Virus record (IMG/VR): IMGVR_UViG_3300033553_000668
Location: 1 to 47,986 of that record
DNA: 47,986 bases
Reading direction: 5' to 3' (one strand)
DNA from: a virus
The position numbers and the translations under genes are program-made. A model generated the notes under the pieces. That model was not told the DNA's origin. It saw only the letters and a list, made by a program, of their open reading frames with translations, and searched no databases. Below are positions 10,182 through 43,506 of the stretch, piece after piece. Position 1 is the first letter of the stretch; each line of letters opens with the position of its first letter.

Positions 10182-11018
10182 ATGTATGTATTAAAGTCAG
10201 TGCCACAACCGCAGAATACTTCTGCGGGGGCACCAACTCCAAAAGATTCCAATGTTACCATCTTTGATGCTAACGATGTATTGGCGTGGCCAACTCCCGA
10301 TGCGGGAGGTGTGAACCTGCTTGGAAATTATGTATTGAAGCCAGGAGCTAAAATGCATAAATTATATATGACCCCTTCAAAACAAGCCGCTTCTTTTGAA
10401 AGCGACGGTGATGAAGATGCCGTAGGGATCACTCAGAAATTTGAAGGATCTTTCCCTGGTGACAGCGTAGAGATAAGAGAGTTTGTAAAAAACAATCTTG
10501 GAAGAAACCTGATCATTGCTTACGGAACTTGTAGAGATACAAACAAAACCGTATGCGGTACCAAGTGTTCACCAATGAAGTTAAAGCCAACTTTTACTTC
10601 TAACGGTGATGGTACTATGCACACGTTGGTATTTGAGCAGTATATGAAGACTGACCAGGTGCCTTACAACTATACCGGAAGCACTTCATTTGCTGAAGCT
10701 TTTGCAGCTGCAGATGAAAACCTTAGCCTTCTTGTAGCCAATGGTACATCTTACCAATTACCTGCTTTTGCAGTTGAATTGGGAACTGCCCTTGATGTTG
10801 CTGCTTTGGATCTTGCTCACGGAGCTGTTGTTAGCCTTATTGGTGGAGGTGGAGCTTTCCCTGCTGTTTTAAGCAGTGGAGTTCAAACCGGAGCGCCTGC
10901 AGTAAATGTGGTACTTAAAGAAGATACTGATTGGACAGCATTGCAAAATGCTACAATTAGTCTTGAAGTATTCGTTGCCGGTGCAACCACGTATCTAATA
11001 GAGCGTTCAAGAAGTTAA
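10182..11018 (+). CDS. Tail-tube-like structural protein with C-terminal display domain, 278 aa
   Basis: Starts at ATG 10182; a second ATG 4 bases on is out of frame. Residues 1-165 form a beta-rich domain with a Cys cluster (GTCRDTNKTVCGTKCSP, about 117-133). Residues about 175-278 form a domain resembling the C-terminal modules of the capsid protein, ending LIERSRS. A tail-tube or major decoration protein fits its size and its place right after the capsid gene. A strong terminator follows. I favour tail tube, with decoration protein as the alternative. Confidence 0.5.
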   Translation: MYVLKSVPQPQNTSAGAPTPKDSNVTIFDANDVLAWPTPDAGGVNLLGNYVLKPGAKMHKLYMTPSKQAASFESDGDEDAVGITQKFEGSFPGDSVEIREFVKNNLGRNLIIAYGTCRDTNKTVCGTKCSPMKLKPTFTSNGDGTMHTLVFEQYMKTDQVPYNYTGSTSFAEAFAAADENLSLLVANGTSYQLPAFAVELGTALDVAALDLAHGAVVSLIGGGGAFPAVLSSGVQTGAPAVNVVLKEDTDWTALQNATISLEVFVAGATTYLIERSRS

Positions 11019-24216: not shown

Positions 24217-25071
24217 ATGGAAACAATTTTACTCCTCCTTCTGGTAGTTGCCGTTATTATTATTATAGTTCAGGCAACCTCAAAAAAAAAGACTTCTACT
24301 CCTTTCACCCCTTCCAAGTCAACCGTTAATCAAAGTCAATCCTCTACTTACCAATTAGGCGACAGCCAGGGAGCTGGAGAATACGAAATGGGATTTGAGG
24401 AATTTACTCTTACCGGAATACATATTCCAAATCGAAAAAAGTATATTCTTGATAATTGTCAACAAGAAGATAAAGTCGAATTTATTGTGGAGAAGAATAA
24501 TCCGGTCAATCCTTTGGCTATTGCTGTTAATCATAAAGGCAAGCTTATAGGTTACATTGGTGATGATGATCTTGATCACGCTCACGATTTTATTAATTAT
24601 GAGCACGAGGGTTTAATAACCAGTATTGATTATGATGGGGACCATCTTACGGTTGATGTTGAATTGGGATATATAATTCCTGCTAAAAAGAAAAAACCTA
24701 AGAAAGTAAAATCGCCAAGTACATCTAATGTCACCCCGGAAGATTTTATGATATGGAAATCCAATGAGGTGCCTTCAGAGTTTTTAAAACCTCAAAAAGA
24801 TTTGGAGGATAAGTCTCACTTCTTTTATGGTAAAAAAGTTTGCATAAGCGGCCAGCTAAGTATTTTCCCTTACCGAGCTGAGCTTGCAAAACATCTTTGG
24901 GAATTGGGTGCAGATGTTCAGGTCAATGTTGGTAAAACCTGTGGAATATTAATTGCTGGAGATGGCGTGGGGCCATCAAAACTTCAAAGAGCGCAGGAAT
25001 ATGGTGTAGAAATTATGAAAGAAGTAGAATTAAGTGAAAAGTTGAACGGATTTAAATCTAAATATATATAA
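24217..25071 (+). CDS. Membrane-anchored HIRAN-BRCT protein, 284 aa
   Basis: Residues 3-20 are a transmembrane helix, followed by a Ser/Thr linker. About 60-150 looks like a HIRAN domain (EEFTLTGIHIPNR, NPVNPLAIAVNHKGKLIGYI), a fold known for grasping 3' single-strand DNA ends. About 202-272 is a BRCT domain of the DNA-ligase type (GKKVCISGQLSIFPYRAELA, GADVQVNVGKTCGILIAGDG). This union at the membrane suggests sensing of DNA ends as DNA enters or leaves the cell. It has its own segment between terminators, like an accessory (moron) gene. Function is inferred only. Confidence 0.7.
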   Translation: METILLLLLVVAVIIIIVQATSKKKTSTPFTPSKSTVNQSQSSTYQLGDSQGAGEYEMGFEEFTLTGIHIPNRKKYILDNCQQEDKVEFIVEKNNPVNPLAIAVNHKGKLIGYIGDDDLDHAHDFINYEHEGLITSIDYDGDHLTVDVELGYIIPAKKKKPKKVKSPSTSNVTPEDFMIWKSNEVPSEFLKPQKDLEDKSHFFYGKKVCISGQLSIFPYRAELAKHLWELGADVQVNVGKTCGILIAGDGVGPSKLQRAQEYGVEIMKEVELSEKLNGFKSKYI

Positions 25072-25605: not shown

Positions 25606-25611
25606 TTTTAA

Positions 25612-25637
25612 GCCCTGCAAATGCAGGGCTTTTTCTT
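25612..25637 (+). terminator. Strong intrinsic terminator before the fibre operon
   Basis: AAGCCCTGCA and TGCAGGGCTT, a 10-bp stem with AA centre, then a T-rich tail. Nearly the same hairpin as at 11050-11080. Confidence 0.9.
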
Positions 25638-25674: not shown

Positions 25675-25692
25675 ATTAGCTGTTCAGCTAAT
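25675..25692. promoter_or_regulatory. Operator ATTAGCTGTTCAGCTAAT (repressor-type site at a late promoter)
   Basis: Perfect ATTAGC-N6-GCTAAT, the same 18-base layout as the two sites beside the CI-like gene (42493-42510 and 42523-42540). It abuts late promoter 5 (box starts at 25694). It suggests direct control of the fibre operon by the lysogeny repressor or the early 42566 protein. Confidence 0.7.
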
Positions 25693-25693
25693 T

Positions 25694-25725
25694 GTCACAC
25701 CTTAATTAACACATACGTAAACTTT
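25694..25725 (+). promoter_or_regulatory. Late promoter 5 (tail-fibre operon)
   Basis: GTCACACCTTAA at 25694-25705. Here TAAACTTT (25718-25725) is 3 bases closer than in the other copies. A perfect TATATTTG lies at 25732-25739, 11 bases further out. Which -7 box is used is open; the second gives a leader of about 10 nt to the ATG at 25755. Confidence 0.7.
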
Positions 25726-25754
25726 TTAAGATATATTTGGGAAAAGATTCACAA

Positions 25755-26258
25755 ATGATTCTGTCCCAACGGGTCCCCCATCTTAAGAATATTTGCGGCG
25801 TAGCCATTGATCTTTCAGCGCTTCCGGTGCCATCTTATTCAGAAAATACTCAACCTTTTTATGATTCCTTTTTAACAACGAGTGATTCTAAACCGGTCTA
25901 TTTTGGAAAGCGCACTGTTCGTTTTACTGAAACTTCTAAAGAATCAAGGGCAGGGATCTATTATGAAACTACGGTTGAGATCCAGTTTCCTAATAGCGAT
26001 GAGAACCGGGCGTTACGGATTGAAGAGATGCGCAAAGCAAAATTTGTGATTATCAGCCTTAGCGGTGGAAATGTTTTCCTGGTGGGAAGAAATGATTTTT
26101 TTCAGAATACCAAACCAGCTTTAAAGATTCAAAGTGATGAGCAGCTCACGGCTGTAAAATTTACGGCAGTATCAATGTTTCCATCTGGATTTTTACCCCA
26201 ATATAATGCCGGCCTGCTACCCCACAGCATCCCGGTTAACTTACTCAACGCTGAATAA
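25755..26258 (+). CDS. Hypothetical tail protein, 167 aa
   Basis: ATG 25755 preferred; the in-frame TTG at 25737 overlaps the promoter. Beta-rich: MILSQRVPHLKNICGVAIDL; GIYYETTVEIQFPNSDENRA; FVIISLSGGNVFLVGRNDFF. First gene of the fibre operon, overlapping the next by one base (TAATG). Could be a tail-tip or fibre-attachment protein; family not recognised. Confidence 0.6.
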   Translation: MILSQRVPHLKNICGVAIDLSALPVPSYSENTQPFYDSFLTTSDSKPVYFGKRTVRFTETSKESRAGIYYETTVEIQFPNSDENRALRIEEMRKAKFVIISLSGGNVFLVGRNDFFQNTKPALKIQSDEQLTAVKFTAVSMFPSGFLPQYNAGLLPHSIPVNLLNAE

Positions 26259-28324
26259 TGAATTTACAGGATATCCAACCAAAACAGGACGATGCACAAA
26301 GATTACTGGCGCTCAATGGAGTGCCAAAAGCTTTTTGGTTAAGCGCAGAGGAGATCAATCTTATACTGGATGTACTTGCAAGGCTTTTGGGCAATGAAAG
26401 TGCATTGTACAAGGGAGAGCATCAGGATCTGCAGTATCTTAATGCTGCGCATCCTCTTCCTGAGCCTGGATCCTATGCGCAAATCATTGTTGTAAATGGT
26501 GACAACTTAAAAGCTTCTTGGGACAATACAGACAAAAAATGGTTTTTGGATGGCCTTTATGTTGAACCAGGTAGCGATGCAGCATATCTTTTAAAATCAG
26601 TCTATGATGCAAACGGGGATGGGATTATAGATAAAGCAAAGGATCTTCACGATGTTTTAACTGCTGGAGGAACCAAATATTACGGAACCAAAAATGGTGT
26701 AGTTGGTGTATTTGATTTTCCGGCTGGTAGCGAGGGTGGAACTTCCTCTCCAACCGAAATAGTTTCCCTGGATCCTAACTGGCAGGGTGGATTAAATTTT
26801 GAACCCGTGGCCACCTTTAAGGAAGAAGGTGTTTTAAAAAATGATTCCAGGCCATTAACTGCAGATCCTGCAGATCCCAATTTTGACAGGTTTGATGTAT
26901 TGGGAATAGATCTTACTGTGGATCAATTAAAAATAATTAAAGGAGCTGCCCAGGATCCTCCTATTGAACCTTCTTATGATCCCCTTACCTTTTTACCAGG
27001 GAAATTCATTCTTATTAAGGCAGGCGCCGCAATACCTGATGGTTTTGTAGGGGTAACTGTGTATAATGAGGGGAATGAATGGCAAAATACAAATGCTGGT
27101 CCAGATTTCGATAGATTAAACCAGGAGAGTCCGGCTGTTGGGATTTATGCGATTAAGGTTGTTTCTCCTTTACAAAATAGCCAGGCACTTCCTTTTGTGG
27201 CTCCGGTTCCCAAAACCTTTGAGGAGGGAATGAAAATTTCCTACAAGTATAAAAATATTGTTGGGGGGATCCATCGTTGGTTGGTTGGTGGAACAAAAAC
27301 CAATGGAAGGCCAGGAAGCATTTGGATTGATGCTCCTTTTAATTACTCCGCTTCATCTTTGGTTTATCAGTCATTATCAGTTACCATTCCAGCTGGAATT
27401 CTAACTTCCATAGATAAAATCAGTTTAGTATCTGGTACTGCTGGTTTGGAGTATTTTGTTGATGATGTGAAATTGGTTACCGGTACTGAAGCTGTGACCA
27501 ACGGGGGAGTAACCTTAGAGCAGATGAATTCTGCCTTAGCTCTTAAAGTTGATAAGGTTGCTGGGTATGGCCTTTCTCAGGAGAATTTTTCACCTGCAGA
27601 AAAAACCAAACTGGCCAATGTTATAGAGCTTCATAAAGGAACCTATACAACCATTACAGCTTTAAGAGCTGCTTTTCCTGAAGGCGCAGGGCAGGTTTGG
27701 CACCAAAACCGAGGAGGTTGGACTGGTGATGTGGATGCTGGAACCAGTGCGAATGTCGTAAGATATCTCTGGGATGCATCAGATTTAAAATGGGTTATCC
27801 AGCAAGGAGAAACAACCGCTGAAACAGCAGAGAGTATACGGACCAAATACTTGAGTAATGCAGGGACAGAGGAATTCACTACAACTTATAAAAATAAAGT
27901 AGATAGCATTACAGCTATTTTCACAACTGCCCTTAAAAGCGCTTATGACTCTGCCTCTTCCTGGGTTTCAACCAATGGTGCAAATGTATTAAGCAGACTT
28001 ACTGCATTGGAAGGGGCTGCAGTATTATCCGATACGCTCACCACTTCGGGATCTATTACCAGCGCAACTCAGACTGATGGAGGTTTTACGCAAGCAGGGA
28101 AAGCTGTAAGAATAGCCAACGGAGTAAATGCAATCAACTATACAGTTAACGGAATTACTGCTTCATTTATTAAAGGAGGCACAGGCGCGATCACATTTGT
28201 TCAAGGATCAGGCAGGAATTTAACAGGGGCAAATGGCACTTTAATTTTTAATGGCGCGGTCAATTCAACTGCATCCATAGTGAGTTTTGGGACCACAGAT
28301 ATTTTATACATAAATAATTTATAA
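26258..28324 (+). CDS. Tail fibre / receptor-binding protein 1, 688 aa
   Basis: Helical N-terminal attachment part, an EF-hand-like loop (YDANGDGIIDKAKD near residue 115) that could bind calcium, and several beta domains. A classic fibre linker KVDKVAGYGLSQENFSPAEK-TKL lies near residue 430, and a Gly/Ser/Thr-rich trimer-like C-terminus ends in FGTTDILYINNL. The linker 'KVDKV.G.GLS...F...EK.KL' is frequent in Bacteroidota fibre proteins. Binds the host surface. Contains at least a dozen GATC sites, unlike the next gene. Confidence 0.75.
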   Translation: MNLQDIQPKQDDAQRLLALNGVPKAFWLSAEEINLILDVLARLLGNESALYKGEHQDLQYLNAAHPLPEPGSYAQIIVVNGDNLKASWDNTDKKWFLDGLYVEPGSDAAYLLKSVYDANGDGIIDKAKDLHDVLTAGGTKYYGTKNGVVGVFDFPAGSEGGTSSPTEIVSLDPNWQGGLNFEPVATFKEEGVLKNDSRPLTADPADPNFDRFDVLGIDLTVDQLKIIKGAAQDPPIEPSYDPLTFLPGKFILIKAGAAIPDGFVGVTVYNEGNEWQNTNAGPDFDRLNQESPAVGIYAIKVVSPLQNSQALPFVAPVPKTFEEGMKISYKYKNIVGGIHRWLVGGTKTNGRPGSIWIDAPFNYSASSLVYQSLSVTIPAGILTSIDKISLVSGTAGLEYFVDDVKLVTGTEAVTNGGVTLEQMNSALALKVDKVAGYGLSQENFSPAEKTKLANVIELHKGTYTTITALRAAFPEGAGQVWHQNRGGWTGDVDAGTSANVVRYLWDASDLKWVIQQGETTAETAESIRTKYLSNAGTEEFTTTYKNKVDSITAIFTTALKSAYDSASSWVSTNGANVLSRLTALEGAAVLSDTLTTSGSITSATQTDGGFTQAGKAVRIANGVNAINYTVNGITASFIKGGTGAITFVQGSGRNLTGANGTLIFNGAVNSTASIVSFGTTDILYINNL

Positions 28325-28325
28325 A

Positions 28326-30152
28326 ATGAGTTTTAATCCACATCAATGGTATTTGAACGGAAAAGCAAACGGCGGCGACCCGAATGCTTATAACGTTTTA
28401 ATTACCGGGGCTTCTTACAATAATACAGGGGAGTTACGATTTAGATTAAAATCTTACCCGAGTGGAGAAGAATTGCCAGCAGATACTATTAAAAATTTCA
28501 GAATGGTAGGCACTAACTGTTATTTTTTAATAGAAACCCCTTATCAGGTAAGGGGTAACCCGCCTGGAACCTCTTTTTTTGATTATGGTAATTACTGTAA
28601 AACTATTGAAGCTTCAGCTTTCCAAAACGGAGCGACAAGAGAAATCAGATTTCAAGGGGTAACCTCTATAAATGCGCAGTATATAGTAGCATCAAGTGAG
28701 TGCCGAATTGTGGATTTAAGAAATGCCACTTTATTATCGGGGCTGGTTTTTGCTTCAGCAGTGCATCGGGTGGAATATTACGATATAAGAAGCTGTACGA
28801 CCTTGGGCGATACCCCTGCCGATAAAAAAGCCTTTGACCCGATTGGAGTTAATACCAGTACGATAATTTATGCGCACCCTACTTTACAAACTAATAACGC
28901 GGGGGCGATGGATGGAGATTTAGTTTATGCACAAAGTAGGGGAGCTACTATAAGATTTGTTCAAAATAATACAATTCCTTCCAGTGTAACCGGCCTGGCT
29001 GTAGGAACGATATATAACACTGCGCTGCAGTTGAATTTTAACACGCCAGCCAGTGCTAACATTATTGATTTTTATCAGGTCTATATTAACGGGGTATATT
29101 ATCAAAAAATTGCGGGTAGTGGCGATGTTATAACTCAACTTCAAATCGGCACCTTATATGAAATTGAAGTTGTAGCTGTAGATATTTACTATAATAAAAG
29201 TATATCTAACAGCAAAATAACCCAGCAAACCAGCAGCACAGCTATAACAAATTTAAACCGGACAACTGTGCACGGAAGCGCTATAGAATTCACTTTAACT
29301 AATCCGCCAGAAGTTTATAATACGAACGGAAAATATAGGGTTTTTGTAGACGGAGTTTTTAAACATAAAATAGAGCCCGGTGGGGTTTTGGCTGCAGTAA
29401 CTTTAATCAAAAGCACCTTTTATAATATAACAGTTTACCCCGAGGATGCTTTTGGAAATATAGGTGCTGCAGTAAGTAACACTATTACAGGAACCACGGC
29501 GGCGAGTTACACTGTGGGAACTACAGGCCTGCGGTCGTATTACAAATTAAATGAGCCTTTAGCATCTGCAATAGCTGCGGATAGTTTAGGAGTAGCGAAT
29601 TTAACGATTACTGATTTGGTTTTGGCAGAACCTGGGTTAATTGATAAATCAATGCGTTCCACAGGCATAAGCAGCAAAGCCGAAACATCAACCTCGCCAG
29701 CCATTACCGGAAGCTTTACAGTTTCAATGGCACTTTATAGGACTGCCAATTCTGCAGGTAACAACGCTGCGATAATTGATGTCGGAGGATGGACGCCGAA
29801 TTCAGGTTTTGGACTTTGGATGAACCAGGGAACTGTATGGTGGCGAATAAATAATAATTATTTGAATGGAGACAGCACCTCCCCAGTTCTACCATTAAAC
29901 CAATGGAGTGTAATTATATTTAGTTATGACGGAACTACTGTTAAGGTTTTTATGAACGGGCTTTTATATATGAGAAAAGTAATATCCATAACTATAAATC
30001 CCACGAATTTAGTGCGCCTATTTTCAAGGGATAACGGTACTCAGGCTTATATAGGAAGAATGGAAGGGGCGGGCTTATGGACAAGTCCTACAAATGAAAT
30101 TAAAGCATCCGAAATGGCTGCTAAAATGTTAGAAGGTAACCACTTAATTTAA
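28326..30152 (+). CDS. Receptor-binding protein 2, LamG/Fn3-type, 608 aa
   Basis: About 1-215 has short repeats like BspA leucine-rich units (FQNGATREIRFQGVTSINAQ; CRIVDLRNATLLSGL). Then come two fibronectin-III-like domains (about 220-395: SSVTGLAVGTIYNTALQLNF; YRVFVDGVFKHKIEPGG). The C-terminal 210 residues form a LamG/concanavalin-like domain (LRSYYKLNEPLASAIAADSL; WSVIIFSYDGTTVKVFMNG). Such parts bind polysaccharide. It holds no GATC at all and looks recently swapped in. Starts one base after the previous stop codon. Confidence 0.7.
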   Translation: MSFNPHQWYLNGKANGGDPNAYNVLITGASYNNTGELRFRLKSYPSGEELPADTIKNFRMVGTNCYFLIETPYQVRGNPPGTSFFDYGNYCKTIEASAFQNGATREIRFQGVTSINAQYIVASSECRIVDLRNATLLSGLVFASAVHRVEYYDIRSCTTLGDTPADKKAFDPIGVNTSTIIYAHPTLQTNNAGAMDGDLVYAQSRGATIRFVQNNTIPSSVTGLAVGTIYNTALQLNFNTPASANIIDFYQVYINGVYYQKIAGSGDVITQLQIGTLYEIEVVAVDIYYNKSISNSKITQQTSSTAITNLNRTTVHGSAIEFTLTNPPEVYNTNGKYRVFVDGVFKHKIEPGGVLAAVTLIKSTFYNITVYPEDAFGNIGAAVSNTITGTTAASYTVGTTGLRSYYKLNEPLASAIAADSLGVANLTITDLVLAEPGLIDKSMRSTGISSKAETSTSPAITGSFTVSMALYRTANSAGNNAAIIDVGGWTPNSGFGLWMNQGTVWWRINNNYLNGDSTSPVLPLNQWSVIIFSYDGTTVKVFMNGLLYMRKVISITINPTNLVRLFSRDNGTQAYIGRMEGAGLWTSPTNEIKASEMAAKMLEGNHLI

Positions 30153-30161
30153 ACTAAAAAA

Positions 30162-30548
30162 ATGCTTAGACTTAGAACTAAAACTCCCAAGACTGTACCT
30201 GCCAAAGCTCCCGTACGTGGAACTATAGATGTGATTATTCACTTTATTGTGGATGGTGTTTTAATGGATAAAAATGGGATCACCACGAAAGGTTACTATT
30301 ACTACTATGATCAGAATGGAAACATTGTCAAGCTTGATGATTTCGGCCCAAATGCCACCAAGTCCTGGGATATGATTATTCAGATTGAAAACAATCAAAT
30401 AGTGCCAGCTCTAAACTCAAACATCAACTTATATGACAATATAATGCAGAGGCTTGAGGAGTTCACCGAGTTACAACAACATCAAGAAACAGGATTGAAT
30501 TACGGGATTGTCCCGGAAGATCTTGAAGCAGATATAGATATAGAATAA
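30162..30548 (+). CDS. Hypothetical fibre-associated protein, 128 aa
   Basis: MLRLRTKTPKTVPAKAPVRG, then beta strands (VIIHFIVDGVLMDKNGI; YYYYYDQNGNIVKLDDF) and an acidic C-terminus (EDLEADIDIE). Last codon overlaps the next ATG. Possibly a fibre cap or assembly factor. GATC sites reappear in this gene. Confidence 0.55.
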   Translation: MLRLRTKTPKTVPAKAPVRGTIDVIIHFIVDGVLMDKNGITTKGYYYYYDQNGNIVKLDDFGPNATKSWDMIIQIENNQIVPALNSNINLYDNIMQRLEEFTELQQHQETGLNYGIVPEDLEADIDIE

Positions 30549-31090
30549 TGAAAAAAATCCCCCCGTCCGTTTTATCCTGGTTGAAAGAATTCTTCAGCCT
30601 GATTGGCCAGCTCATTTCCTCACTATTTCTTATTGTTTTGGCAATTTCATTATTCATCCCCTTGTTTTTTGGTGCAATGATCTGGAAGATCGTCGTTTCA
30701 GTGAAGCACGATAACAGGAAGGCCAGGGAAATTATTTCCGGTACTTCCAAATTTTTTACTGCGCTGGCCATTGCCATTGATCAGCTGGGTAATGTTGCTT
30801 TTGGTGGTTTCTTCAATTGGCTTTTTATAATTGATAGTGAGGATTTCCCTTTTGGAAATACACACGAAACCGTTAGTGAGGTTTTGGGATGGAACCAGAA
30901 CCTTGAGAACCTTACCAGGCACGGAAAATTATTGGTGGCTATTCTGGAAGTAATTGAGGAGGATCATTGCCTTAAAGCAATGACTTCCGGACTTTTTGAT
31001 GCGAAGTACAAAATTGAATACTTCCGGAAGGTGCAGGCAAAGATCCGCTCTATCGAAGAGACCAAAGAATTTATGGCCAAGTACAACTAA
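30548..31090 (+). CDS. Membrane protein, 180 aa
   Basis: Two close hydrophobic segments (about 16-52: FFSLIGQLISSLFLIVLAIS then LFIPLFFGAMIWKIVV), a basic stretch, and a soluble C-terminal half with helices. No domain recognised. Lies between fibre genes and a secreted protease and is translated in an overlap (TAATG). A host-envelope role is likelier than a virion role. Confidence 0.6.
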   Translation: MKKIPPSVLSWLKEFFSLIGQLISSLFLIVLAISLFIPLFFGAMIWKIVVSVKHDNRKAREIISGTSKFFTALAIAIDQLGNVAFGGFFNWLFIIDSEDFPFGNTHETVSEVLGWNQNLENLTRHGKLLVAILEVIEEDHCLKAMTSGLFDAKYKIEYFRKVQAKIRSIEETKEFMAKYN

Positions 31091-31548
31091 TGAAGTGGCT
31101 TTTTTACATATCGCTCATTTTTTGTTTTGGATCCAGTTCCGGGCAAAGTTATTACACGAATGCTCCTGAGGTTGTAAATCCCATTATTGAATCCTTTAAA
31201 ATAGAAGCCGGGATCCGAGGCATAGAAGTGGAATCAAAACTGGCCACCCTGGACAGTATTATCATTGCAGATACGGGGGATATGGCAGGTGCCGATTATT
31301 ACAGGGGTACCATTCGTTTAAGGGGAAGAGATATGGGTAATGAATTTCAAATTACTCAAAGGATCTATCACGAGCTTGGCCATCATTTTGGACTGGAACA
31401 TTGTTTTAAATGCCGGTACAACATTATGAGCGCCAACAGGAGTGACCGCGCGGCTTTTCTTTTTCAGGATGCCTGGCTCAGGACATTATATTTTGATATG
31501 TATTTCGATCATTTAAAAGAACCAAATAAAGAACATAGGCATTATTGA
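31090..31548 (+). CDS. Secreted zincin metalloprotease, 152 aa
   Basis: Signal peptide (MKWLFYISLIFCFGSSSGQS) and the extended zinc motif H94-E-L-G-H-H98-F-G-L-E-H104, the metzincin H-E-x-x-H-x-x-G-x-x-H form. I-M-S (Met 113) follows as a candidate Met-turn. Two Cys (105, 108) follow directly. About 130 residues mature, small for a metzincin. It would act in periplasm or outside the cell, perhaps on surface proteins during adsorption or release. Tail-operon location is unusual. Confidence 0.78.
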   Translation: MKWLFYISLIFCFGSSSGQSYYTNAPEVVNPIIESFKIEAGIRGIEVESKLATLDSIIIADTGDMAGADYYRGTIRLRGRDMGNEFQITQRIYHELGHHFGLEHCFKCRYNIMSANRSDRAAFLFQDAWLRTLYFDMYFDHLKEPNKEHRHY

Positions 31549-31574
31549 CAACTAAAACTACTCATCCCCCCACT

Positions 31575-32111
31575 ATGAGCAGATCTACTGTTCCTGTACA
31601 CATTCGCCCCCACCTTGTGCCTTTCTTCTTTAAGGAGTTTGAAGGTATTGAAGCTTTGCATTTAAATAGAAAGGTAAAGGCTGCCAAGATCTCCACGCAA
31701 AAACCACTTGGAAAATTTATCAGGCTCCTTCTGGAAAGGTCCCCAAGACCTGAGCAGGCCGATAAATTCCAGATGTTTTTGAGCATCCAGGACAGGGAGC
31801 ATTCCAAAGAGTTCTTTGGCCAGATCTATAAATGCGCCAACGGTGCTAATTCTTTCTTAAAACTCCCGGAACAGGGGGTGCAACTCATCAATGATCATCT
31901 GGAGGATGTTTTTAGATCTGCACTTATTTATTTTGTCCAGGGACATTTGAAAAACAATCCCAAAGCCGAGATCCGGCAGGCCGTGGATTATTTTCTTATA
32001 GAATATGATCTATATGAAACCGGGTTTGGGATTGAATCTTTGAGAAGGTATTACTACCGTGTAATGGAAGAAGAATTTAAGCTTAAAAGAATGCAGGGAC
32101 CCGGCAGGTAA
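31575..32111 (+). CDS. Hypothetical protein before the tape measure gene, 178 aa
   Basis: ATG 31575 used; the upstream TTG 31545 overlaps the protease stop. Basic helical protein: MSRSTVPVHIRPHLVPFFFK; KISTQKPLGKFIRLLLERSP; ends KLKRMQGPGR. Last gene before late promoter 6. Could be a tail-assembly factor; no domain seen. Confidence 0.6.
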   Translation: MSRSTVPVHIRPHLVPFFFKEFEGIEALHLNRKVKAAKISTQKPLGKFIRLLLERSPRPEQADKFQMFLSIQDREHSKEFFGQIYKCANGANSFLKLPEQGVQLINDHLEDVFRSALIYFVQGHLKNNPKAEIRQAVDYFLIEYDLYETGFGIESLRRYYYRVMEEEFKLKRMQGPGR

Positions 32112-32210: not shown

Positions 32211-35200
32211 ATGGCCAAGAGAATTGTAGATGAAGAAATGCGTTTTACCGTTGTCATCAATGGCAACGAGGCGCAAAAAGAATTGTTCCAACTTGAAAAA
32301 TCTACAAGGGAACTCACCCAAACCAACAAAAATTTAAAGGCCGAGAAGGATAAGCTGCGTGCCCAGGGCAAGCAGGATTCCCAGGAATATAAAAACCTTA
32401 CTGCAAAGATCAAGGAGAATAACCTTGCCCTTACCGATAATAAAAACCGAATGAAGGTTTTGCAGGATCAGTTAGGTTTAACCGGTCTTACGATGCGGCA
32501 GCTCAGCCAGCGTTCCTCTCAACTAAAATTGCAGTTACACAATATGGTACCGGGCAGTGCTCAGTACATTAAACTGCAGGCAGATCTCAAAGCTGTAGAT
32601 GCCAGGATGCAGGAGCTCAGGATGAGTTCCCGTGCTGCGCAATCTTCCATAGGGAGATTGGCAGATGGATTCAACAGGTATTTTGCTTTGGGAGCTTCAG
32701 TTGTGGCCGCTGGTACCGGGGTGGTTTTATCCCTGCAGAAAATGATCGATTACAATGGTAAGCTTTCAGATTCACAGGCCGATGTGATGAAAACCACAGG
32801 GCTTACCAAGAAAGAAACCGATGAGCTTACCAAATCATTTGGTATGTTCAAGACCAGGACAGCAAGGATTGAGCTTTTAAAACTTGCTGAAGAGGCTGGT
32901 AGACTTGGTACAACAGGCGTTCAGAATTTACAGGATTATGTTGCAGCTGCCAACCAGATTAAAGTGGCTCTTGGGGATGATCTTTCAGATGAGCAAATTA
33001 AGGAAGTGGGTAAAATGACCCAGATCTATGAGGTAGGCACCCAAACAGGGAAAGAATTTGCGGGTGCAAATTTAGCCCTTGGATCTTCTATCAATGAGGT
33101 ATCAGCTTCCGGGGCAAACGCTGCGGGTTTCCTTGTGGATTATTTAAAACGTTCTGCCGGTATAGCCAAGCAGGCCAAAATTTCTGCAGATCAAAATATT
33201 GGGTATGCAGCAACCTTTGATGAGATAGGCCAGAGCGTTGAAATTTCAGCGACTGCAATGAATAAGGTGTGGATGGATCTATTTGATGATACGGCCACCT
33301 ATGCGAAAATTGCGGGGATTCCTTTAAAGGATTTCAACAATATGTTGCAAACAGATTCCAACGAGGCAATGATAAAGTTCCTGGAAGGTTTGAACGGCAA
33401 CAATGAAGGGTTGTCTGTAATGGTTCAAAAGCTGAAAGATATTGATGTGGGAGGTGCCCGTGGAGCTCAGGCGCTTTCTGCCCTTGCCGGAAGCACTGAA
33501 AAATTAAGGGAACGCCAAAAACTGGCCAATGAAGCTTTGATTGAAGCTACCTCTCTTACCGATGAATATAATATCAAGAACAATAACCTTGCTGCAACTT
33601 TAGAAAAGATCCAAAAAAAATTGATTGGGATGTTTGCTTCAGAAGCGATTGTAAACCGGTTGGAAAGCTGGGTAATTTGGTTTGCCAAATTTATAGGAGC
33701 TACAGAAGATGCCAGTGGGGAAGTTACAATCTGGAAGGAAAGGCTGGTTGCAGCCTTTAAAGTTCTGTTGGTGATCACTGCAGCAATGTTGAGTTACCAG
33801 GCGGCCATTAAACTGGTTGCAATGTGGACGGCCAGATCTACGGCAATTACAAAAATTCATTATGCGATGCTTATTGCCCAGGAGATTGCCACAAAATCCC
33901 TTGCGCTGGCCAAAGCTCTACTTACCGGTAATATTCAAAAAGTAATAGTGGCTTACAGGGCTTTGACTGCTACTATGGTGCTCAATCCTATTGGAGCCGT
34001 CGTGGCCGTAATTGGTGCCGCGGTTGCTGCCTATTATGCATTTTCTGAAAGCGCAGAGAAAGCCGCAACTGCACAGTCTATAATGAATGATGCATCCACC
34101 GAAGCAATTAAAACAACCAGGGCAGAGGTGAACGAGATTAACGGATTAATTGCTGTTGCAAAGGATGATACTTTAAGCAAGGAGCAAAGGATAAAAGCTA
34201 TTGTACGGCTTAATGAAATTTCTCCGGAGTATCTGGGGAATTTAACGCTGGAAAATATCGGTACCGTGGAAGCTACAAAATCATTGGATGATTATGTAGA
34301 AAGCCTGGTTAGAGCTGCAAAGGCAAAAGCGATCAAGGCGCAGCTGGATGCCAAGGCCGAGGAACTGGCAACAGCTGAAGGATCTTCCCTGGAGGAAAAT
34401 ATTAAGTGGTATGAAAAATTGTGGAATCAAATTTCCAATTTGAATAACACCTATGCTGCAGCCGGGGATAATGCCCTTACCGCCATTAAGAACAAAAAAG
34501 AATTGATTGACGTAACCCAGGCTGAACTGGAGCTGCTTGAAGAGCAGTACAAAGCACAGCTGAAGGTCAACGCTCAGGAAGATGGCAAAAGGAATCCTGG
34601 AGCTCCTGCAGGTCCTAAGGAAGGTGACAAACAAATCATTGATGGCGAGCTGTATGTCTTTACCGGTGGCCGTTGGAAAAAGGAAGTTTTTAAACCCAAG
34701 GGAGATCCAGATGGAAAAAAGAAGGATGAATATAAAGTAGATCCAAAGAAAGAGGCCAATGAACTGCGAAGGATACAGGAGGAGAATGACAGGTTGAAGG
34801 CTTCACTTATAAGTGAATCTTTTAAACGGGAAATAGCACTGGAGGAAGCTAATCACCAGGCGAAGATGGGGAAACTCCGTGAACAAATGATTGAAGAAGC
34901 CGAGCTCCTGGCCATAGACAAGGAGATTGTTAAGGCTACCAATGCCGGAGATACTAAAAGGGTTGATGCCCTTGCAAAAACCAAGGAGCTGTGGATCCAG
35001 AGGAATGCTGCGCTTAACCGTCAGGTTGAATTTGAAGAGAGCATTCACCAGAATAAAATAGGATCCATCATCCAGAAGGGACTTGAAGATGATTTCCAAA
35101 CAGCTCAAAAAGCCTACGACAGGGAGAAAAGACAGCGGGAAATTGCGCACAATGAGCAAATGGCCGCCCTGGGCAGTGATAAAAAAGCCAGGAAAGCACT

Positions 35201-36389
35201 TCAGGATAAATTCAATCAGGAAGAAACCGATAGGGAAGCAAAGCATCTTCAGGATTTAATAGCCAAAATGAAGGCTATAATGGACGGTGGCGATTTCAAA
35301 GGTTTTGAACTGGAGCTTTTAACGGAAGATCAAAAACAAGCTTTACTGGATTTCCTTGCAGAGGCAAATCTAAAACTCAGCGACCTTTTAAATAAAGCCT
35401 CCGGAGGATCTGGAATTGATACAAAAAGAATTGATGGTGACGTGGATATCCTTGGTTTCACCATTGATCAATGGGATACTACTTTAAACAATCTTGATAC
35501 TGCAGCTGGAAAACTGGAAGCTGCCCAGATGGCCATCGGGGCAATGATGAATGCCTGGAGTATGTACAACAATTTTGTTGCAGCAAAACAACAGGTGGAG
35601 CTTCAGCAATTTGAACGTGCACAGGATGCCAAACAGCGCACGCTTGAACGCCAGCTTAATGCGGGGTATATCAACCAGAGGCAGTATAACAAGTCGATTG
35701 AAGAACTGGAAAAGGAAAGCCAGCGCAAACGCGCTGAGATGGAATACAAAGCGGCCAAGCGTGAAAAGGAAATGGCTATCACCGGTATTATTTTAAATAC
35801 CGCAATGGGTGTAGCCAAGGCAATGGCGCAGGGTGGTTTTGTTCTTGGTGTGCCTTGGGCTGCAGTTGTAGGAGCATTGGGAGCAATTCAATTAGGATTG
35901 GCCTTGGCCACTCCCCTTCCTGCCAAAGGCTTTGAGGATGGTCTTTATCCTGTGAGGCGTGAGCAGGATGGCCAGATGTTCAATGCAAGCTATGGCGGTG
36001 AAACCAGATCAGGGCTTGTAAAAAAACCAACGTTGTTCTTGGCCGGGGAAAAGAATAAGCCTGAAATGATCATTGATAACAAGGCGTGGAAAAAGATGGA
36101 TCCTGATGTTAAGAATTCTCTTTACCGTGAACTTTCCAGGGTAAAAGGATTTGAATCCGGGTACTACCGTCCTCAGCCGCAAGCAGCTGTTGAAAGAGCT
36201 GGCAATGAAACTTCAGTAGGCAATGAGTATGCCTTATTTGCTTCAGCATTGAACCGTAATTCAGAAGTGATGGAGCGCATTGAAAAGAACGGTTTAATGG
36301 CTGTGATGTCAGGAAGCCTGGAGAATGCAAAAATGATTCAGGATAAAATTGATGATTATAACAAATTAAGAAACGCAAATAAACGCTAA
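32211..36389 (+). CDS. Tail tape measure protein, 1392 aa
   Basis: Very long, helix-rich, with coiled coils at about 20-80 (LEKSTRELTQTNKNLKAEKD) and about 840-1010. Hydrophobic segments lie near 514-540, 588-612 and 1187-1233 (NTAMGVAKAMAQGGFVLGVP), and a Gly/Tyr-rich C-terminus has GFEDGLYPVRREQDG. This is the normal design of siphovirus tape measures, which set tail length and reach into the host membrane at DNA entry. At roughly 0.15 nm per residue the tail would be near 200 nm. Largest gene in the window. Confidence 0.9.
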   Translation: MAKRIVDEEMRFTVVINGNEAQKELFQLEKSTRELTQTNKNLKAEKDKLRAQGKQDSQEYKNLTAKIKENNLALTDNKNRMKVLQDQLGLTGLTMRQLSQRSSQLKLQLHNMVPGSAQYIKLQADLKAVDARMQELRMSSRAAQSSIGRLADGFNRYFALGASVVAAGTGVVLSLQKMIDYNGKLSDSQADVMKTTGLTKKETDELTKSFGMFKTRTARIELLKLAEEAGRLGTTGVQNLQDYVAAANQIKVALGDDLSDEQIKEVGKMTQIYEVGTQTGKEFAGANLALGSSINEVSASGANAAGFLVDYLKRSAGIAKQAKISADQNIGYAATFDEIGQSVEISATAMNKVWMDLFDDTATYAKIAGIPLKDFNNMLQTDSNEAMIKFLEGLNGNNEGLSVMVQKLKDIDVGGARGAQALSALAGSTEKLRERQKLANEALIEATSLTDEYNIKNNNLAATLEKIQKKLIGMFASEAIVNRLESWVIWFAKFIGATEDASGEVTIWKERLVAAFKVLLVITAAMLSYQAAIKLVAMWTARSTAITKIHYAMLIAQEIATKSLALAKALLTGNIQKVIVAYRALTATMVLNPIGAVVAVIGAAVAAYYAFSESAEKAATAQSIMNDASTEAIKTTRAEVNEINGLIAVAKDDTLSKEQRIKAIVRLNEISPEYLGNLTLENIGTVEATKSLDDYVESLVRAAKAKAIKAQLDAKAEELATAEGSSLEENIKWYEKLWNQISNLNNTYAAAGDNALTAIKNKKELIDVTQAELELLEEQYKAQLKVNAQEDGKRNPGAPAGPKEGDKQIIDGELYVFTGGRWKKEVFKPKGDPDGKKKDEYKVDPKKEANELRRIQEENDRLKASLISESFKREIALEEANHQAKMGKLREQMIEEAELLAIDKEIVKATNAGDTKRVDALAKTKELWIQRNAALNRQVEFEESIHQNKIGSIIQKGLEDDFQTAQKAYDREKRQREIAHNEQMAALGSDKKARKALQDKFNQEETDREAKHLQDLIAKMKAIMDGGDFKGFELELLTEDQKQALLDFLAEANLKLSDLLNKASGGSGIDTKRIDGDVDILGFTIDQWDTTLNNLDTAAGKLEAAQMAIGAMMNAWSMYNNFVAAKQQVELQQFERAQDAKQRTLERQLNAGYINQRQYNKSIEELEKESQRKRAEMEYKAAKREKEMAITGIILNTAMGVAKAMAQGGFVLGVPWAAVVGALGAIQLGLALATPLPAKGFEDGLYPVRREQDGQMFNASYGGETRSGLVKKPTLFLAGEKNKPEMIIDNKAWKKMDPDVKNSLYRELSRVKGFESGYYRPQPQAAVERAGNETSVGNEYALFASALNRNSEVMERIEKNGLMAVMSGSLENAKMIQDKIDDYNKLRNANKR

Positions 36390-36781: not shown

Positions 36782-38977
36782 ATGGCCTACGATATCATAT
36801 TAAAATCTCCCCAGGAGTTTACCCCGAGCGCTTCCAATGAGTTGTTTTACCAGTTTTGGAAAACAGATCCGGAATCTGTCTATATAAATTATTATGTAGG
36901 CAGTCCTGCCCCGGCTCCTGTACTTATTAATTACCAGGTTCAAAATCATTTTATCACCTCTCCTCCGGGAAAATATTCAGCGTTTTACGTAAATGCAAGG
37001 ATCATTGCCTGGACAGGGCAATATCCTCATTTACATTTAAGCGGCGAGGTAGCCGATGGGGAACCGGGCTTGTTGCTTACTGAAAACAATTTACAGCAAA
37101 CCACAACTTTGAGTTTTCAAAGTTTAGGATTGCTTTCTCCAGGTTCTGTGAATGGCATCATTGAATTTTATGTCAATGGTGTGCGTACAGATTCCGGACT
37201 AACCGAGCGATTCATTTCTACGCGCAGGGTATATGTTCAAATAGATACATTGGTGCAAACTGGTTTGACCACCAATAAACAGGATCTTTATTTCTCACAC
37301 ATAAAAGAAGCTGCTCCATTACCGGGGAGGGAATTACAAATTATTACCGCTGCAAATTTTGAAATCAGGCTTTCAAAATACTATGAGATCACCGGGGGCA
37401 ATGTGGTTTATGCTGGTGAGATCTTTGGAGATAAGGTGAAATACACGGGAAGTGGGAACCAGACGGTTACCATTTCTTTAAAGCAGGAATTTGATTTTTA
37501 TACAGAGAGCGTTTTCAGTTCCTATATGGAAATTGAAAACCTTGATCTTCCCCAGGGGGAGATTATGACTTTGCCGTGGTATTTGGATCTTACAGCTTAT
37601 TTAATGGATGCCCACGGATTTGTAACAGATCCGCAGGCGCTGGAATTCTTTTCAATAAAAGGTGTAGAGAGTGGAGATCCGCAGGAGCTCAGCGTATTTG
37701 CTTCACAGGCCTTTAATGTTACATTTCCTTTTTGGCTTCAGGTAACTCCAGCTGCCGGTGATAATTTTGCGTTGTTTTCTGTAAAACCGATATCGGCTAA
37801 TAATTTAGTGGCTGGTGATTATAATGGAGTGATCACCTTGACCTCTGCAGATGCGGTTCTGGAAGTACCTGTGCTTTTAAAAGTTGTGGAAAGCATTGAC
37901 CAGGGCTTTTCAAAAAGTGAAATTAATTTCGCAGGAAATAACAACCAGGTAAGCAGTCTTTATAGTGATGATTTAAACGAGCGTGCTGCGCTTGATCTGG
38001 AAATTACTGCTTATGATTATAAAGGATTTGGTGTAGTTACATCACATCCTTTCAAAGTTGCTTTTTTTCAATCCAAAACCGAAATTCATATAGGCGAAAT
38101 TGTAGCCCGGAGATTTAAAAAAATGAATTCCCTGGGAGATATCGGGTACCGGCAATACAATTTAGAATCAGAGGATCCCCAGCTGTTCCAAATCTTCAAT
38201 TATTACAAGCCTGCAGCTGTAGATATTAGCCTTGAAATTGAAAGCCGAAAAACGGGCAGCGTTTCCAAGGAAAAGAATTTTAATGCGGTGCAGTTTGTCA
38301 ATGGCCGCAGGCCAAAGCAATACCAGTCAAATTATGGGATCCTGAATTATGATACGGTACCGGTAAGGGTGACAAAAAAATCACAGCTGCTATTCAATTT
38401 TATTCGAAGGTTCCAGGATCACGAAATTAAAATCTACAGGAATAATGTTTTGTACAAAACAGTCAGTCATTCCCCGGGCGGTAATTCTCTTTTTGGTATG
38501 GCCATATATTTTAAAGACTTCAAGCCAGGGGATGTGATTGATATTAGGATGGGAGGAAATTTTGTACAACAGTATGTTGTATTCCCGGACCAGGACTATT
38601 CAAATCACATTGCATTTATGAATGAATACAATGTGCTGGAAACTTACGAGTTTACAGGAGCTTTGAATTTTAATTCAGACTATGAGAACACTTCTTCCAA
38701 AACCTATAAGCAGCTGGTGGAGTATCTTGAGAATTTGGAAACTACCAAAGATCAAATGCTGGTAATAAATTCCGGATGGATTCTAAAATCCAACCAGGTA
38801 ATTATGGATGCCATCATCCGGGCGAAAAGGGTTTGGTTCGTAAATGCAGGAAAGGAAATTTCCCTTACCCCTGTTTCCAAAAAGATGGTGAATGAAGATT
38901 CCCAACAGGAATTGTATGAATATAATTTAGAATTTAAAATCAACAGGGAAAATGATCTTGAAGTTTACACATCCTAA
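36782..38977 (+). CDS. Large distal-tail protein, 731 aa
   Basis: Beta-rich throughout (SPQEFTPSASNELFYQFWKT; LQQTTTLSFQSLGLLSPGSV), with internal Ig-like segments (about 280-370). The start MAY-x-L/I-x-L resembles that of the previous gene (MAYDIIL versus MAYELYS). Likely part of the tail tip below the tape measure. Overlaps the next gene by 26 bases. Specific role unknown. Confidence 0.65.
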   Translation: MAYDIILKSPQEFTPSASNELFYQFWKTDPESVYINYYVGSPAPAPVLINYQVQNHFITSPPGKYSAFYVNARIIAWTGQYPHLHLSGEVADGEPGLLLTENNLQQTTTLSFQSLGLLSPGSVNGIIEFYVNGVRTDSGLTERFISTRRVYVQIDTLVQTGLTTNKQDLYFSHIKEAAPLPGRELQIITAANFEIRLSKYYEITGGNVVYAGEIFGDKVKYTGSGNQTVTISLKQEFDFYTESVFSSYMEIENLDLPQGEIMTLPWYLDLTAYLMDAHGFVTDPQALEFFSIKGVESGDPQELSVFASQAFNVTFPFWLQVTPAAGDNFALFSVKPISANNLVAGDYNGVITLTSADAVLEVPVLLKVVESIDQGFSKSEINFAGNNNQVSSLYSDDLNERAALDLEITAYDYKGFGVVTSHPFKVAFFQSKTEIHIGEIVARRFKKMNSLGDIGYRQYNLESEDPQLFQIFNYYKPAAVDISLEIESRKTGSVSKEKNFNAVQFVNGRRPKQYQSNYGILNYDTVPVRVTKKSQLLFNFIRRFQDHEIKIYRNNVLYKTVSHSPGGNSLFGMAIYFKDFKPGDVIDIRMGGNFVQQYVVFPDQDYSNHIAFMNEYNVLETYEFTGALNFNSDYENTSSKTYKQLVEYLENLETTKDQMLVINSGWILKSNQVIMDAIIRAKRVWFVNAGKEISLTPVSKKMVNEDSQQELYEYNLEFKINRENDLEVYTS

Positions 38978-40826
38978 TTTTGAACTGGATTTCACGGGTA
39001 AGAATATTACCATAGTAGAAGAGAACCATTGGTTTTCTGACCAGTTTTTTACAAAATACACCTTCCCTATTGAGTTTGATGTGAACGATGATCTGGACGT
39101 GGCTTTAAATATGATCACGCATATGAACTCTGCCTCCAGCCCGAAAAAATTTGACGGGTTCTTTCAGAAATTCGGTGAAGAAAGTGAAGCTGTTTTAATT
39201 ATTGAAAGGATCCAGGGGAGAAAAGCCCAGGGAAAAATGAGATTTGGATTTGAAGAGTTTCCCAATTACGATAAGAAATTATCTGAATTGCCGCTTCAAA
39301 AAATTATACTGCAGGAACTAATGACCGATTATGCCGTGGGGATCATCGGGCAAACTTTCCCTGCAGTAAACTTTAATTTCCCACAGATCATTGTAGATTC
39401 TATTGATGTGGCCACCGAGCAATGGCAATATTTTGAAGGCCTTTTAAACAATTATAAAGGAGGTGGTTTTTTAACCAACGAATACAACGCCACTACAGAT
39501 GAGCAGATCAACCGGAATATAATGCAGCCTATGCCCTACCTTTTGCACGTGCTTAAGGAAGGGTTTGCAGAAAAAGGCCTTACCCTTACCGGTGATATTC
39601 TGGAGGATCCGGAATTTAAAAAAGCGCTCCTGGTGATGAAGAGTGAATATTACAGCAGTGTTTCACCCAATGCAAATGAATTCCTTGTAAAGACCAATGA
39701 TTACACGGAGCTGGAAATTATACCGGGATCCAGGTACAGCTGGTTAAGCGAAGTGGAAGTGGGCCATTATCAAAAAACCGTTATCCTGCAGGAACCAGGT
39801 GTGTATAAAATTGCCGGCAATGCCTATTTGAGGCAGTACGCCTTTACTGCAGATGCGCAGTTGTATTTAAACCAACAGGAGATCTGGAGAGTGACCAATT
39901 ATTCCCCGCGGTATTATGAGTCTGTGTACACCATTGATAAGAATATAGAAATTTCCGTGGCGCAGGGTGCCGCTGCATTAAATTTCACTTCTATGCAGCT
40001 CCCTTATGAGCAAATAGGAGATATACAGAATCCGGAGGGAATAATAATGGATCTTACCATTACCAAGATTTCCGGCTTTGATGCGGAAGGCAACCGGACC
40101 CCTTCCCTTATTACTCCAAACGAGATCAACCTTGCCAAGTGCGTACCTGATATCACCTTTGGGGAACTATTGAAAATAGTCAAGAACTGGAAGAATTATG
40201 ATATCTATATCAACCAGGCAGGCGGGGTTGTGGAAATGAATAAAATTGAAAACCTGATGGATACCGATACCCCGATTAATCTGAAAGATTATGAGATCAA
40301 GTACCCGGTGCGGGAGTTTTACCAGGATAAGAGTTTTATTTTAAAATTTCAGGAGGTAAACTCTGAGGAATATAAATTTGTATCAATGTTTATTGATGCC
40401 AACGGTGGCAGATCTTCCTCTTTTGTAAAGATGGAAGACACCAGCGAAATTAATATCAATGCCCTTCCCCTGCCTTTAAAGCAGTTTGGGGTTGTGAGTA
40501 CGGGCCATTTGTTTATTGACAGCCAGAGCCAGGTATTTCTTACTCTTTACGATGGCTTGACAGAAGGGCTTAACCTTGCCCAGGACACTGCAAATCTTTT
40601 AATCCCTGCAGTATATAATAGCAGCTGGAGCAAGTGGATCCATTTCAGGATCATTTCAGAAGGAATAGAATGGAACCTGATATGCCATCCTGAGCTGGCC
40701 GGCCAGATCAAGCAATATACAAGGATCTCAGCTTACGGAAAAAACCTGATCATCAAGCGGATCACCAAAAAGAATATCTCCCGGGATTATTGGGAGATCA
40801 TTCTGGAGTGTGATGGTGGGGATTAA
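38952..40826 (+). CDS. Tail hub / baseplate-like protein, 624 aa
   Basis: Starts MILKFTHPNFELDFTGKNIT. Mixed alpha/beta; the segment SGLITPNEINLAKCVPDITF-like (about 385-405), then GELLKIVKNWKNYDIYINQA, is the 'PDIT...LLK.I...F.....' pattern I recall in Bacteroidota phage tail proteins. Last structural gene of the late region. It converges on the integrase gene, and the two stops share TTAA at 40823-40826. Likely binds the tape measure end or forms the hub. Confidence 0.65.
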   Translation: MILKFTHPNFELDFTGKNITIVEENHWFSDQFFTKYTFPIEFDVNDDLDVALNMITHMNSASSPKKFDGFFQKFGEESEAVLIIERIQGRKAQGKMRFGFEEFPNYDKKLSELPLQKIILQELMTDYAVGIIGQTFPAVNFNFPQIIVDSIDVATEQWQYFEGLLNNYKGGGFLTNEYNATTDEQINRNIMQPMPYLLHVLKEGFAEKGLTLTGDILEDPEFKKALLVMKSEYYSSVSPNANEFLVKTNDYTELEIIPGSRYSWLSEVEVGHYQKTVILQEPGVYKIAGNAYLRQYAFTADAQLYLNQQEIWRVTNYSPRYYESVYTIDKNIEISVAQGAAALNFTSMQLPYEQIGDIQNPEGIIMDLTITKISGFDAEGNRTPSLITPNEINLAKCVPDITFGELLKIVKNWKNYDIYINQAGGVVEMNKIENLMDTDTPINLKDYEIKYPVREFYQDKSFILKFQEVNSEEYKFVSMFIDANGGRSSSFVKMEDTSEININALPLPLKQFGVVSTGHLFIDSQSQVFLTLYDGLTEGLNLAQDTANLLIPAVYNSSWSKWIHFRIISEGIEWNLICHPELAGQIKQYTRISAYGKNLIIKRITKKNISRDYWEIILECDGGD

Positions 40827-42007: not shown

Positions 42008-42154
42008 TTCACTTGTTTTTGAAATTAAATGAGTAAGGCACCAAGGGGCTTACCCCTTGATACCGCTCATTTAACAAGTGTTGCTGCTAAGCATTAGTGA
42101 CCCCGGAGGGAATCAGACTATGTAGCAAACACAAGGGTTAAAATAGCCTTTGTG
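42008..42154. other. Integrase leader with nested inverted repeats
   Basis: Nested arms CACTTGTT/AACAAGTG, AAATGAG/CTCATTT and AAGGGG/CCCCTT (about 42010-42080) would form a long hairpin in the integrase mRNA leader or a cruciform. It is followed rightward by a tRNA-end-like core. Part of CATTTAACAAGTGT...GCTAAGCA (42068-42093) recurs at 43482-43506. Confidence 0.6.
42098..42114 (-). other. Candidate attP core (tRNA 3'-end-like)
   Basis: On the minus strand the 17 bases GATT-CCCTC-CGGGGTC-A divide exactly like the end of a tRNA: T-loop end, T-stem, acceptor strand, discriminator. Integrases of this family often target tRNA ends, and the site lies about 90 bases upstream of int. No full tRNA is present. 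Inference from shape and place. Confidence 0.35.
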
Positions 42155-42487
42155 TCATTTCTGTGACAATTGGGCTTTCAATTCCTTTAAATTCTTCTCA
42201 ATATTTTCAATTAAAGTGTCCGGGGTAACCGGTATTTGGTAATCGCTTTCAGGTTCATTTAGGATCCTGGAGGGAGAGTCTTTTCTTAAAAGCCAGTTGA
42301 GATCCACTTCTGAAAAATATTCTATTACTTTTTGTACTACTTCTATAGGTGGAGTTCGCGCACCGCTAATGTATTGGTTCACAGAAACATTATTTACTCC
42401 TATTTCTTTTCCAAATTTTGTCTGGGAAAGCTTCCTCTCCTTCAGTAACAGCGCTAATTTTTCTCCAAACTCCATATTTAGACTCAT
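42155..42487 (-). CDS. CI-like XRE-family repressor, 110 aa
   Basis: N-terminal HTH (about 5-62): FGEKLALLLKERKLSQTKFG then KEIGVNNVSVNQYISGARTP, a standard XRE domain. Short acidic C-terminal helix (LIENIEKNLKELKAQLSQK) probably for dimerisation; no LexA-type peptidase domain, so not self-cleaving. Divergent from the early operon with operators between. Start MSLNMEF; the second Met is also possible. Likely maintains lysogeny. Confidence 0.82.
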   Translation of the reverse strand: MSLNMEFGEKLALLLKERKLSQTKFGKEIGVNNVSVNQYISGARTPPIEVVQKVIEYFSEVDLNWLLRKDSPSRILNEPESDYQIPVTPDTLIENIEKNLKELKAQLSQK

Positions 42488-42492
42488 TATAA

Positions 42493-42510
42493 ATTAGCCT
42501 TTCGGCTAAT
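42493..42510. promoter_or_regulatory. Operator 1 ATTAGCCTTTCGGCTAAT
   Basis: Perfect inverted repeat ATTAGC-N6-GCTAAT (arms extend one base), 5 bases upstream of the repressor ATG. Likely autoregulates the repressor gene. Confidence 0.7.
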
Positions 42511-42514
42511 ATTT

Positions 42515-42547
42515 GTTTGTTTATTAGCTGGCACGTTAATATATTTG
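42515..42547 (+). promoter_or_regulatory. Early rightward promoter
   Basis: TTTG near 42513-42518 as -33 element and a perfect -7 box TATATTTG at 42540-42547 with about a 21-base spacer. Operator 2 (42523-42540) fills the spacer. Drives the whole early operon from the ATG at 42566. Confidence 0.7.
42523..42540. promoter_or_regulatory. Operator 2 ATTAGCTGGCACGTTAAT
   Basis: Same 18-base layout as operator 1, with one changed base in the right arm (GTTAAT). Lies between the -33 and -7 elements of the early promoter, so binding would repress it. Confidence 0.65.
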
Positions 42548-42565
42548 TTACACATTAATACCTAT

Positions 42566-42844
42566 ATGAACACAAAAGTAAACAAGTTGATTGAGCTTTA
42601 CAATATGCGGTTGCACAAAGCAAATAGAATTGTACAGCTTTTAGACAATCATCTCCCCAAAAGGTTCTATGCCCTTGAAATTGCTCAGCGTTGCAGGAAG
42701 AAAAAAATTGATGTTTCTGCTCAAATAGTTAGAGATGTAAAAGGGTTTAGGACGAAAAACTCTAAGGTTCTGGATGTCATCGTAGGATTCGCAGTCGAAA
42801 ATGAAAAAGCCCAGAAAAGAATAGAGGAACAATTAGAAAAGTAA
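42566..42844 (+). CDS. First early protein (Cro/Cox position), 92 aa
   Basis: ATG 42566; an upstream TTG at 42545 would overlap the -7 box. Basic: MNTKVNKLIELYNMRLHKAN, with LLDNHLPKRFYALEIAQRCR then KKKIDVSAQIVRDVKGFRT. The middle could hold a winged-helix or HTH-like element, but I do not recognise the family. Position opposite the repressor suggests a Cro or excisionase role. It carries no detectable enzyme motif. Confidence 0.65.
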   Translation: MNTKVNKLIELYNMRLHKANRIVQLLDNHLPKRFYALEIAQRCRKKKIDVSAQIVRDVKGFRTKNSKVLDVIVGFAVENEKAQKRIEEQLEK

Positions 42845-43481: not shown

Positions 43482-43506
43482 CATTTAACAAGTGTGATGC
43501 TAAGCA
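43482..43506. repeat. Second copy of CATTTAACAAGTGT...GCTAAGCA
   Basis: Imperfect direct repeat of 42068-42093, with 3 instead of 4 bases in the middle. Both are followed within 7 bases by ACCCCG. The copies frame the immunity region; integrase arm sites or relics of a rearrangement. Confidence 0.5.

Follow-up and report, generated by a model that had tools for sequence, protein, structure and literature searches.

Candidate immunity-repressor operators at the tail-tube/fibre promoter of a Duneviridae-like phage and its relatives

The tail/fibre unit and the repressor locus

The DNA analysed here (the window, comprising all 47,986 bp of an IMG/VR virus record) appears to be the genome of a Duneviridae-like temperate flavobacterial siphophage. 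It is homologous to Unahavirus and Labanvirus in the tape measure (32211-36389), the primase (44133-47351), the LuxR-like regulator (42864-43433) and phrog_23018, with a partly different gene order. The named relatives are Flavobacterium phages 6H, 2A, 23T and FPSV-F7 (Unahavirus) and laban6-1 (Labanvirus), of the family Duneviridae, whose core set consists of the major capsid, portal and adaptor proteins (PMC8776804).

The locus of interest is the promoter of a late gene unit whose features are collected in Table 1. Its first gene likely starts at the ATG at 25755 rather than at the TTG at 25737, because the latter sits within the -7 box and the homologues begin at the ATG. The product belongs to a family annotated as of unknown function, and its structural model is of moderate confidence (pLDDT 66.6). 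Most of its structural matches are tail-tube or tube-like proteins of phages, and the top match, at VIA Z 8.3, is a phage tail core. This gene is followed by the 688-aa gene, the LamG gene and smaller genes, and 25755-32111 is therefore, on the predicted fold, probably a tube/fibre unit. The first-pass annotation had named it a fibre operon; probable fibre genes are indeed present, but the leading gene is predicted to be tail-tube-like. Holin and endolysin (5090-6348) sit elsewhere, under a GTCACACC promoter that carries no operator. The unit also contains a small secreted protein (31090-31548) with a HELGHHFGLEHC zinc-protease-like motif and no Pfam match, similar in size to a secreted gene at 36812-37333 of the IMG/VR relative G001. 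Elsewhere in the late region, 24217-25071 encodes a protein whose BRCT domain resembles that found at the end of NAD-dependent DNA ligases.

The candidate immunity repressor has an HTH_3 domain, is divergent from the early operon and lies beside the integrase (40823-42007), as expected of HTH_3/XRE immunity repressors. The early promoter elements were assigned by the consensus from Flavobacterium johnsoniae, where the -7 element is TAnnTTTG with G at -5 (PMC6847099). One operator-like site falls between the two elements and another just upstream. Repeats of the form CATTTAACAAGTGT..TGCTAAGCA occur at 42003-42020 and 42068-42094, near the integrase, and at 43483-43508, after the LuxR-like gene; one is inverted, and they are possible integrase arm sites or attP.

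Table 1. Features of the tail/fibre unit and of the repressor locus in the window.
Feature	Position	Strand	Remarks
Intrinsic terminator	25610..25631	+	insulates tail unit from transcription upstream
Operator site A, tail/fibre promoter	25675..25692	.	ATTAGCTGTTCAGCTAAT; 8-bp arms, perfect dyad; exact match to repressor-locus operator
Late-promoter box	25694..25701	+	GTCACACC; same box with N19 at four other window promoters
Operator site B (weaker)	25705..25722	.	ATTAACACATACGTAAAC; 30 bp from A, between late box and -7 box
Alternative weak -7-like element	25718..25725	+	TAAACTTT, N16 from box
-7 element	25732..25739	+	TATATTTG, 30 bp from box; spacing and sequence conserved in G001
First gene of unit, phrog_23018	25755..26258	+	predicted tail-tube-like fold
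688-aa protein, probable tail fibre/tail structural	26258..28324	+	position and size; weak assignment
608-aa protein, LamG/ConA-like domain	28326..30152	+	probable receptor-binding or fibre protein
Remaining unit genes (30162, 30548, 31090, 31545)	30162..32111	+	up to next late promoter at 32159
Immunity repressor candidate	42155..42487	-	HTH_3, 110 aa, no peptidase domain
Operator site 1, repressor/early promoter	42493..42510	.	ATTAGCCTTTCGGCTAAT
Early promoter	42516..42547	+	TTTG (42516-42519)-N20-TATATTTG (42540-42547)
Operator site 2	42523..42540	.	ATTAGCTGGCACGTTAAT; between TTTG (-33) and TATATTTG (-7) of early promoter
Cro-position small early protein	42567..42844	+	rival binder of same sites

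Operator sites and the tail-unit promoter

A pattern search of the window for ATTAGC-N6-GCTAAT returned two exact matches, site A and site 1. The dyad had originally been counted three times; the third copy, site 2, carries one mismatch. No further site was found in the entire record when one mismatch was allowed, so the layout is not frequent, and shuffled windows with the repressor region removed gave an expectation of 0.01 exact strict sites per genome. Site B is a fourth, weaker site, with one mismatch to a degenerate operator consensus. Its distance from site A is exactly 30 bp, equal to that between sites 1 and 2, and A and B form the next-best pair genome-wide after the repressor pair; an equally good pair arose in 0/300 shuffled genomes. 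Reading the 25675 dyad as a terminator was rejected, since the dyad lacks a following T-run and the real terminator lies at 25610.

Site A stops one base short of GTCACACC, as the first-pass annotation had indicated in placing the dyad directly against the late box. The irregular spacing described there is also real: the weak -7-like element is 3 bp closer to the box than the usual 19 bp, and the perfect TATATTTG, likely the true -7 element, is 11 bp further.

This promoter stands apart from the other late promoters of the family. With one mismatch tolerated in the -7 box, GTCACA-N2-N19-TAnnTTTG was counted 20 times over five phages (4 in the window, 4 in G001, 3 in G006, 4 in G008 and 5 in laban6-1), including 4659, 7009, 18933 and 32159 in the window and 10648, 12588, 25799 and 38364 in G001; in L006 the boxes are on the minus strand. 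At the tail unit, by comparison, the spacing from box to -7 element is N30 in the window and G001, which shifts the GTCACA box upstream of its usual place by one helical turn, and N18 in G008, and the GTCACA box is missing in laban6-1, G006 and 6H. The tail-unit promoter is thus unlike the rest at exactly the place of the operators; the family's other late promoters lack the operator, and no such dyad lies beside the other GTCACACC boxes. The GTCACA box, with its constant 19-bp spacing, stands in place of the host -33 element, and a phage activator (perhaps the LuxR-like phrog_10300) or a sigma-like factor is therefore likely to act at these promoters. An activator would bind the box itself, with the LuxR-like protein of the window as a candidate.

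Co-variation of the operators across lineages

Relatives in IMG/VR, among them G001 (phrog_23018 64% identity) and G006, were obtained by querying viral contigs with a phrog_23018 alignment; a single phrog_23018 query gave none. A second alignment scan added no relatives, scans of genome contigs with the LuxR-like protein and the phrog_23018 alignment found none, and the exact operator plus GTCACACC pattern had no match in IMG/VR. Phage 1H gave no phrog_23018 match. Both loci could be compared in a small set of five lineages: the window, G001, G006, Labanvirus laban6-1 and Unahavirus 6H/2A/23T. G004 and G008 were left out, as their records do not include the repressor intergenic region.

The operator sequences differ among most of the five lineages, and each lineage's own type recurs at the homologous tail-unit promoter. 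The palindromic consensus RTTARC-N6-GYTAAY, derived only from sites at the repressor loci of the window and G001, has exactly three matches in each of these two genomes, two at the repressor and one at the tail-unit promoter. Those of G001 are at 342 and 372, again 30 bp apart, and at 32233 (ATTAACACCCGTGCTAAC), with none elsewhere in its genome. The strong site at 32233 takes the place equivalent to site B, and only a right half is present at the equivalent of site A. G006 carries TTCACAATAAGTGAA and TTTACATAAAGTAAA at the repressor and TTCACAATAAGTAAA at the tail promoter, the last being 14/15 identical to TTCACAATAAGTGAA. In laban6-1, AAAAAGGAAAACTTTT occurs at both loci; in 6H, 2A and 23T a 48-bp ungapped match between repressor region and tail promoter spans both half-sites. 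The operators of the AT-rich 6H and laban phages are simple A/T-rich words.

A motif-free scan, in which each genome was searched with its own repressor intergenic region, ranked the tail promoter top genome-wide in 6H (34.6 bits), 2A (34.6) and 23T (29.6), against 20.9 bits for the next match, and likewise in G001 (23.8 versus 20.8 bits) and G006 (24.7 versus 21.0 bits). In laban6-1 the tail promoter supplied matches 2 and 3. The window's site ranked only fifth or sixth (18.5 bits) because the spacers differ, and the dyad model was needed to single it out. Across the five phages, the own-phage pairing was the best of 120 permutations, and every own score exceeded all 150 shuffles. The window's tail promoter scored about equally against its own repressor region and that of G001 (18.2 and 18.6 bits), since the two share one operator class. 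Alike operators go with alike repressor recognition helices (NNVSVNQYI in the window and NKVSISQYI in G001; SESMISKYI in 6H and SETMISKVL in laban). The map position of the unit differs between window/G001 and 6H/laban, yet the operators are kept. These genomes show directly that the sites are present and paired, and that they co-vary with the operators of the repressor locus over the five lineages. The proposal of an immunity-type operator at one late promoter is favoured by own-type operators at the homologous promoter in the four other lineages.

Operator-like sites were also observed in other places. In G009 the repressor-locus sites (ATATTCTTTTTTGTCTA) are 32 bp apart, and they are repeated as a pair with 32-bp spacing on the minus strand at ~24.7-25.3 kb, before a KilA-N-like gene between tail genes, where the pair overlaps a TATATTTG box. 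A 32-bp operator-like pair occurs in G006 at 10888/10920 (10888-10934), in the intergenic gap before an ORF of 110 aa in a late-gene stretch. These phages may commonly carry dispersed operators. The tail promoter of G004 carries ATATTCTTATTTGTCTA, which is the G009 operator type, and its repressor intergenic region is predicted to carry ATATTCTTNTTTGTCTA. In G008 (~8740-8780) a dyad with 9-bp arms, TTTTCTGTA-N12-TACAGAAAA, overlaps the GTCACA promoter of the tail unit and is predicted for its repressor intergenic region as well. The tail-unit start of laban6-1 is expected at TAACTTTG, upstream of gp46. In the relatives without phrog_23018 (Ingeline and G009) the site was not seen at a tail unit; in Ingeline, no phrog_23018 homologue was detected at the equivalent place and the tail unit gave no operator-like match.

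Proposed control and its relation to known systems

We propose that the 25675 dyad and its partner at 25705 are an operator pair of the immunity repressor, which probably represses the promoter of the tail-tube/fibre unit directly. The repressor would be the binder, and its binding would repress. In the lysogen it would occupy both operator pairs, at 42.5 kb and at the tail/fibre promoter, blocking early transcription at the former and the tail-tube/fibre unit at the latter; the block would be direct because site B lies shortly before the TATATTTG -7 box. Loss of the repressor would free the tail unit and the early genes at the same moment, and in the window and G001 the freed unit would then probably be boosted by the family late activator via the GTCACA box.

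Cro-like proteins usually use the same operators as the repressor, and a small early protein is kept at the Cro position in all relatives. The tail-promoter sites could accordingly serve this protein and tune or delay tail expression in the lytic cycle, with silencing in the lysogen secondary. We regard this as unlikely, since operator similarity follows the recognition helix of the repressor and the small protein of the window matched no HTH family, although such a role would be compatible with direct repression. It is very improbable that the sites leave the tail promoter unaffected and provide the repressor locus with a distal anchor for looping or cooperative binding: distal CI sites of phage 186 do work in long-range regulation (PMC8053113), but the sites here overlap elements of the promoter and remain linked to the tail unit though its distance to the repressor locus varies between phages.

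Lectin-like and secreted protease-like genes in the unit would suit activation by the repressor in the lysogen (lysogenic conversion, for example by a surface adhesin). This can hardly be expected of a site B centred about -31 from the expected start, where a bound protein would occlude polymerase, or of a unit whose first gene has a predicted tail-tube-like fold. The modest motif-free rank in the window alone could mean that the dyad arose by chance or is a half-site for the GTCACACC-binding late activator, which we consider the least credible reading given the co-variation in five lineages and the other GTCACACC boxes without such a dyad.

Direct repression by the immunity repressor has partial parallels. 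In textbook lysogeny, virion genes are off indirectly because their activator is withheld, and a lambda lysogen keeps its tail genes silent since the antiterminator is lacking; the proposed state of the window would be equally silent, but with a direct operator added. P1 operators are asymmetric, whereas those of the window are symmetric and occupy one extra place only (one pair). The two systems share one repressor with operators at several places, which in P1 C1 are several scattered promoters (PMC8198154). The stoperators of the L5 clade also lie outside the immunity region and diverge together with the repressor (PMC6550527); they are asymmetric 13-bp sites, number up to about 30 and are oriented with transcription, in contrast to the one or two dyad sites at the promoter here, in a genome whose only pairs are those at the repressor and at the tail promoter. 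Coliphage 186 CI, as summarized in PMC8538670 (citing Dibbens 1992), represses pB, from which the late activator gene B is transcribed, besides early promoters. The window resembles it, at the level of sequence, in that a repressor operator overlaps a late-function promoter, but the target would be the virion genes' own promoter, and these flavobacterial phages are unrelated to 186 and have a small HTH_3 repressor. Repressor control beyond early promoters is thus already known, and none of these cases has the same layout; the literature searched contained no report of these flavobacterial-phage operators.

The chances are about even that one unit of virion genes, those for the tail tube and fibres, runs parallel to the early genes, its firing set by the repressor and not by the late-activator cascade alone, with the operator pair kept through operator turnover and unit relocation. 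The promoter of structural genes has kept a putative repressor site through several changes of the repressor's target sequence, and selection must therefore have moved both places together. The co-varying places give a simple test of repressor specificity and offer a route to operator prediction in unannotated flavobacterial prophages. Together with the family late box GTCACA-N2-N19-TAnnTTTG, the operators provide an initial map of how these phages control transcription.
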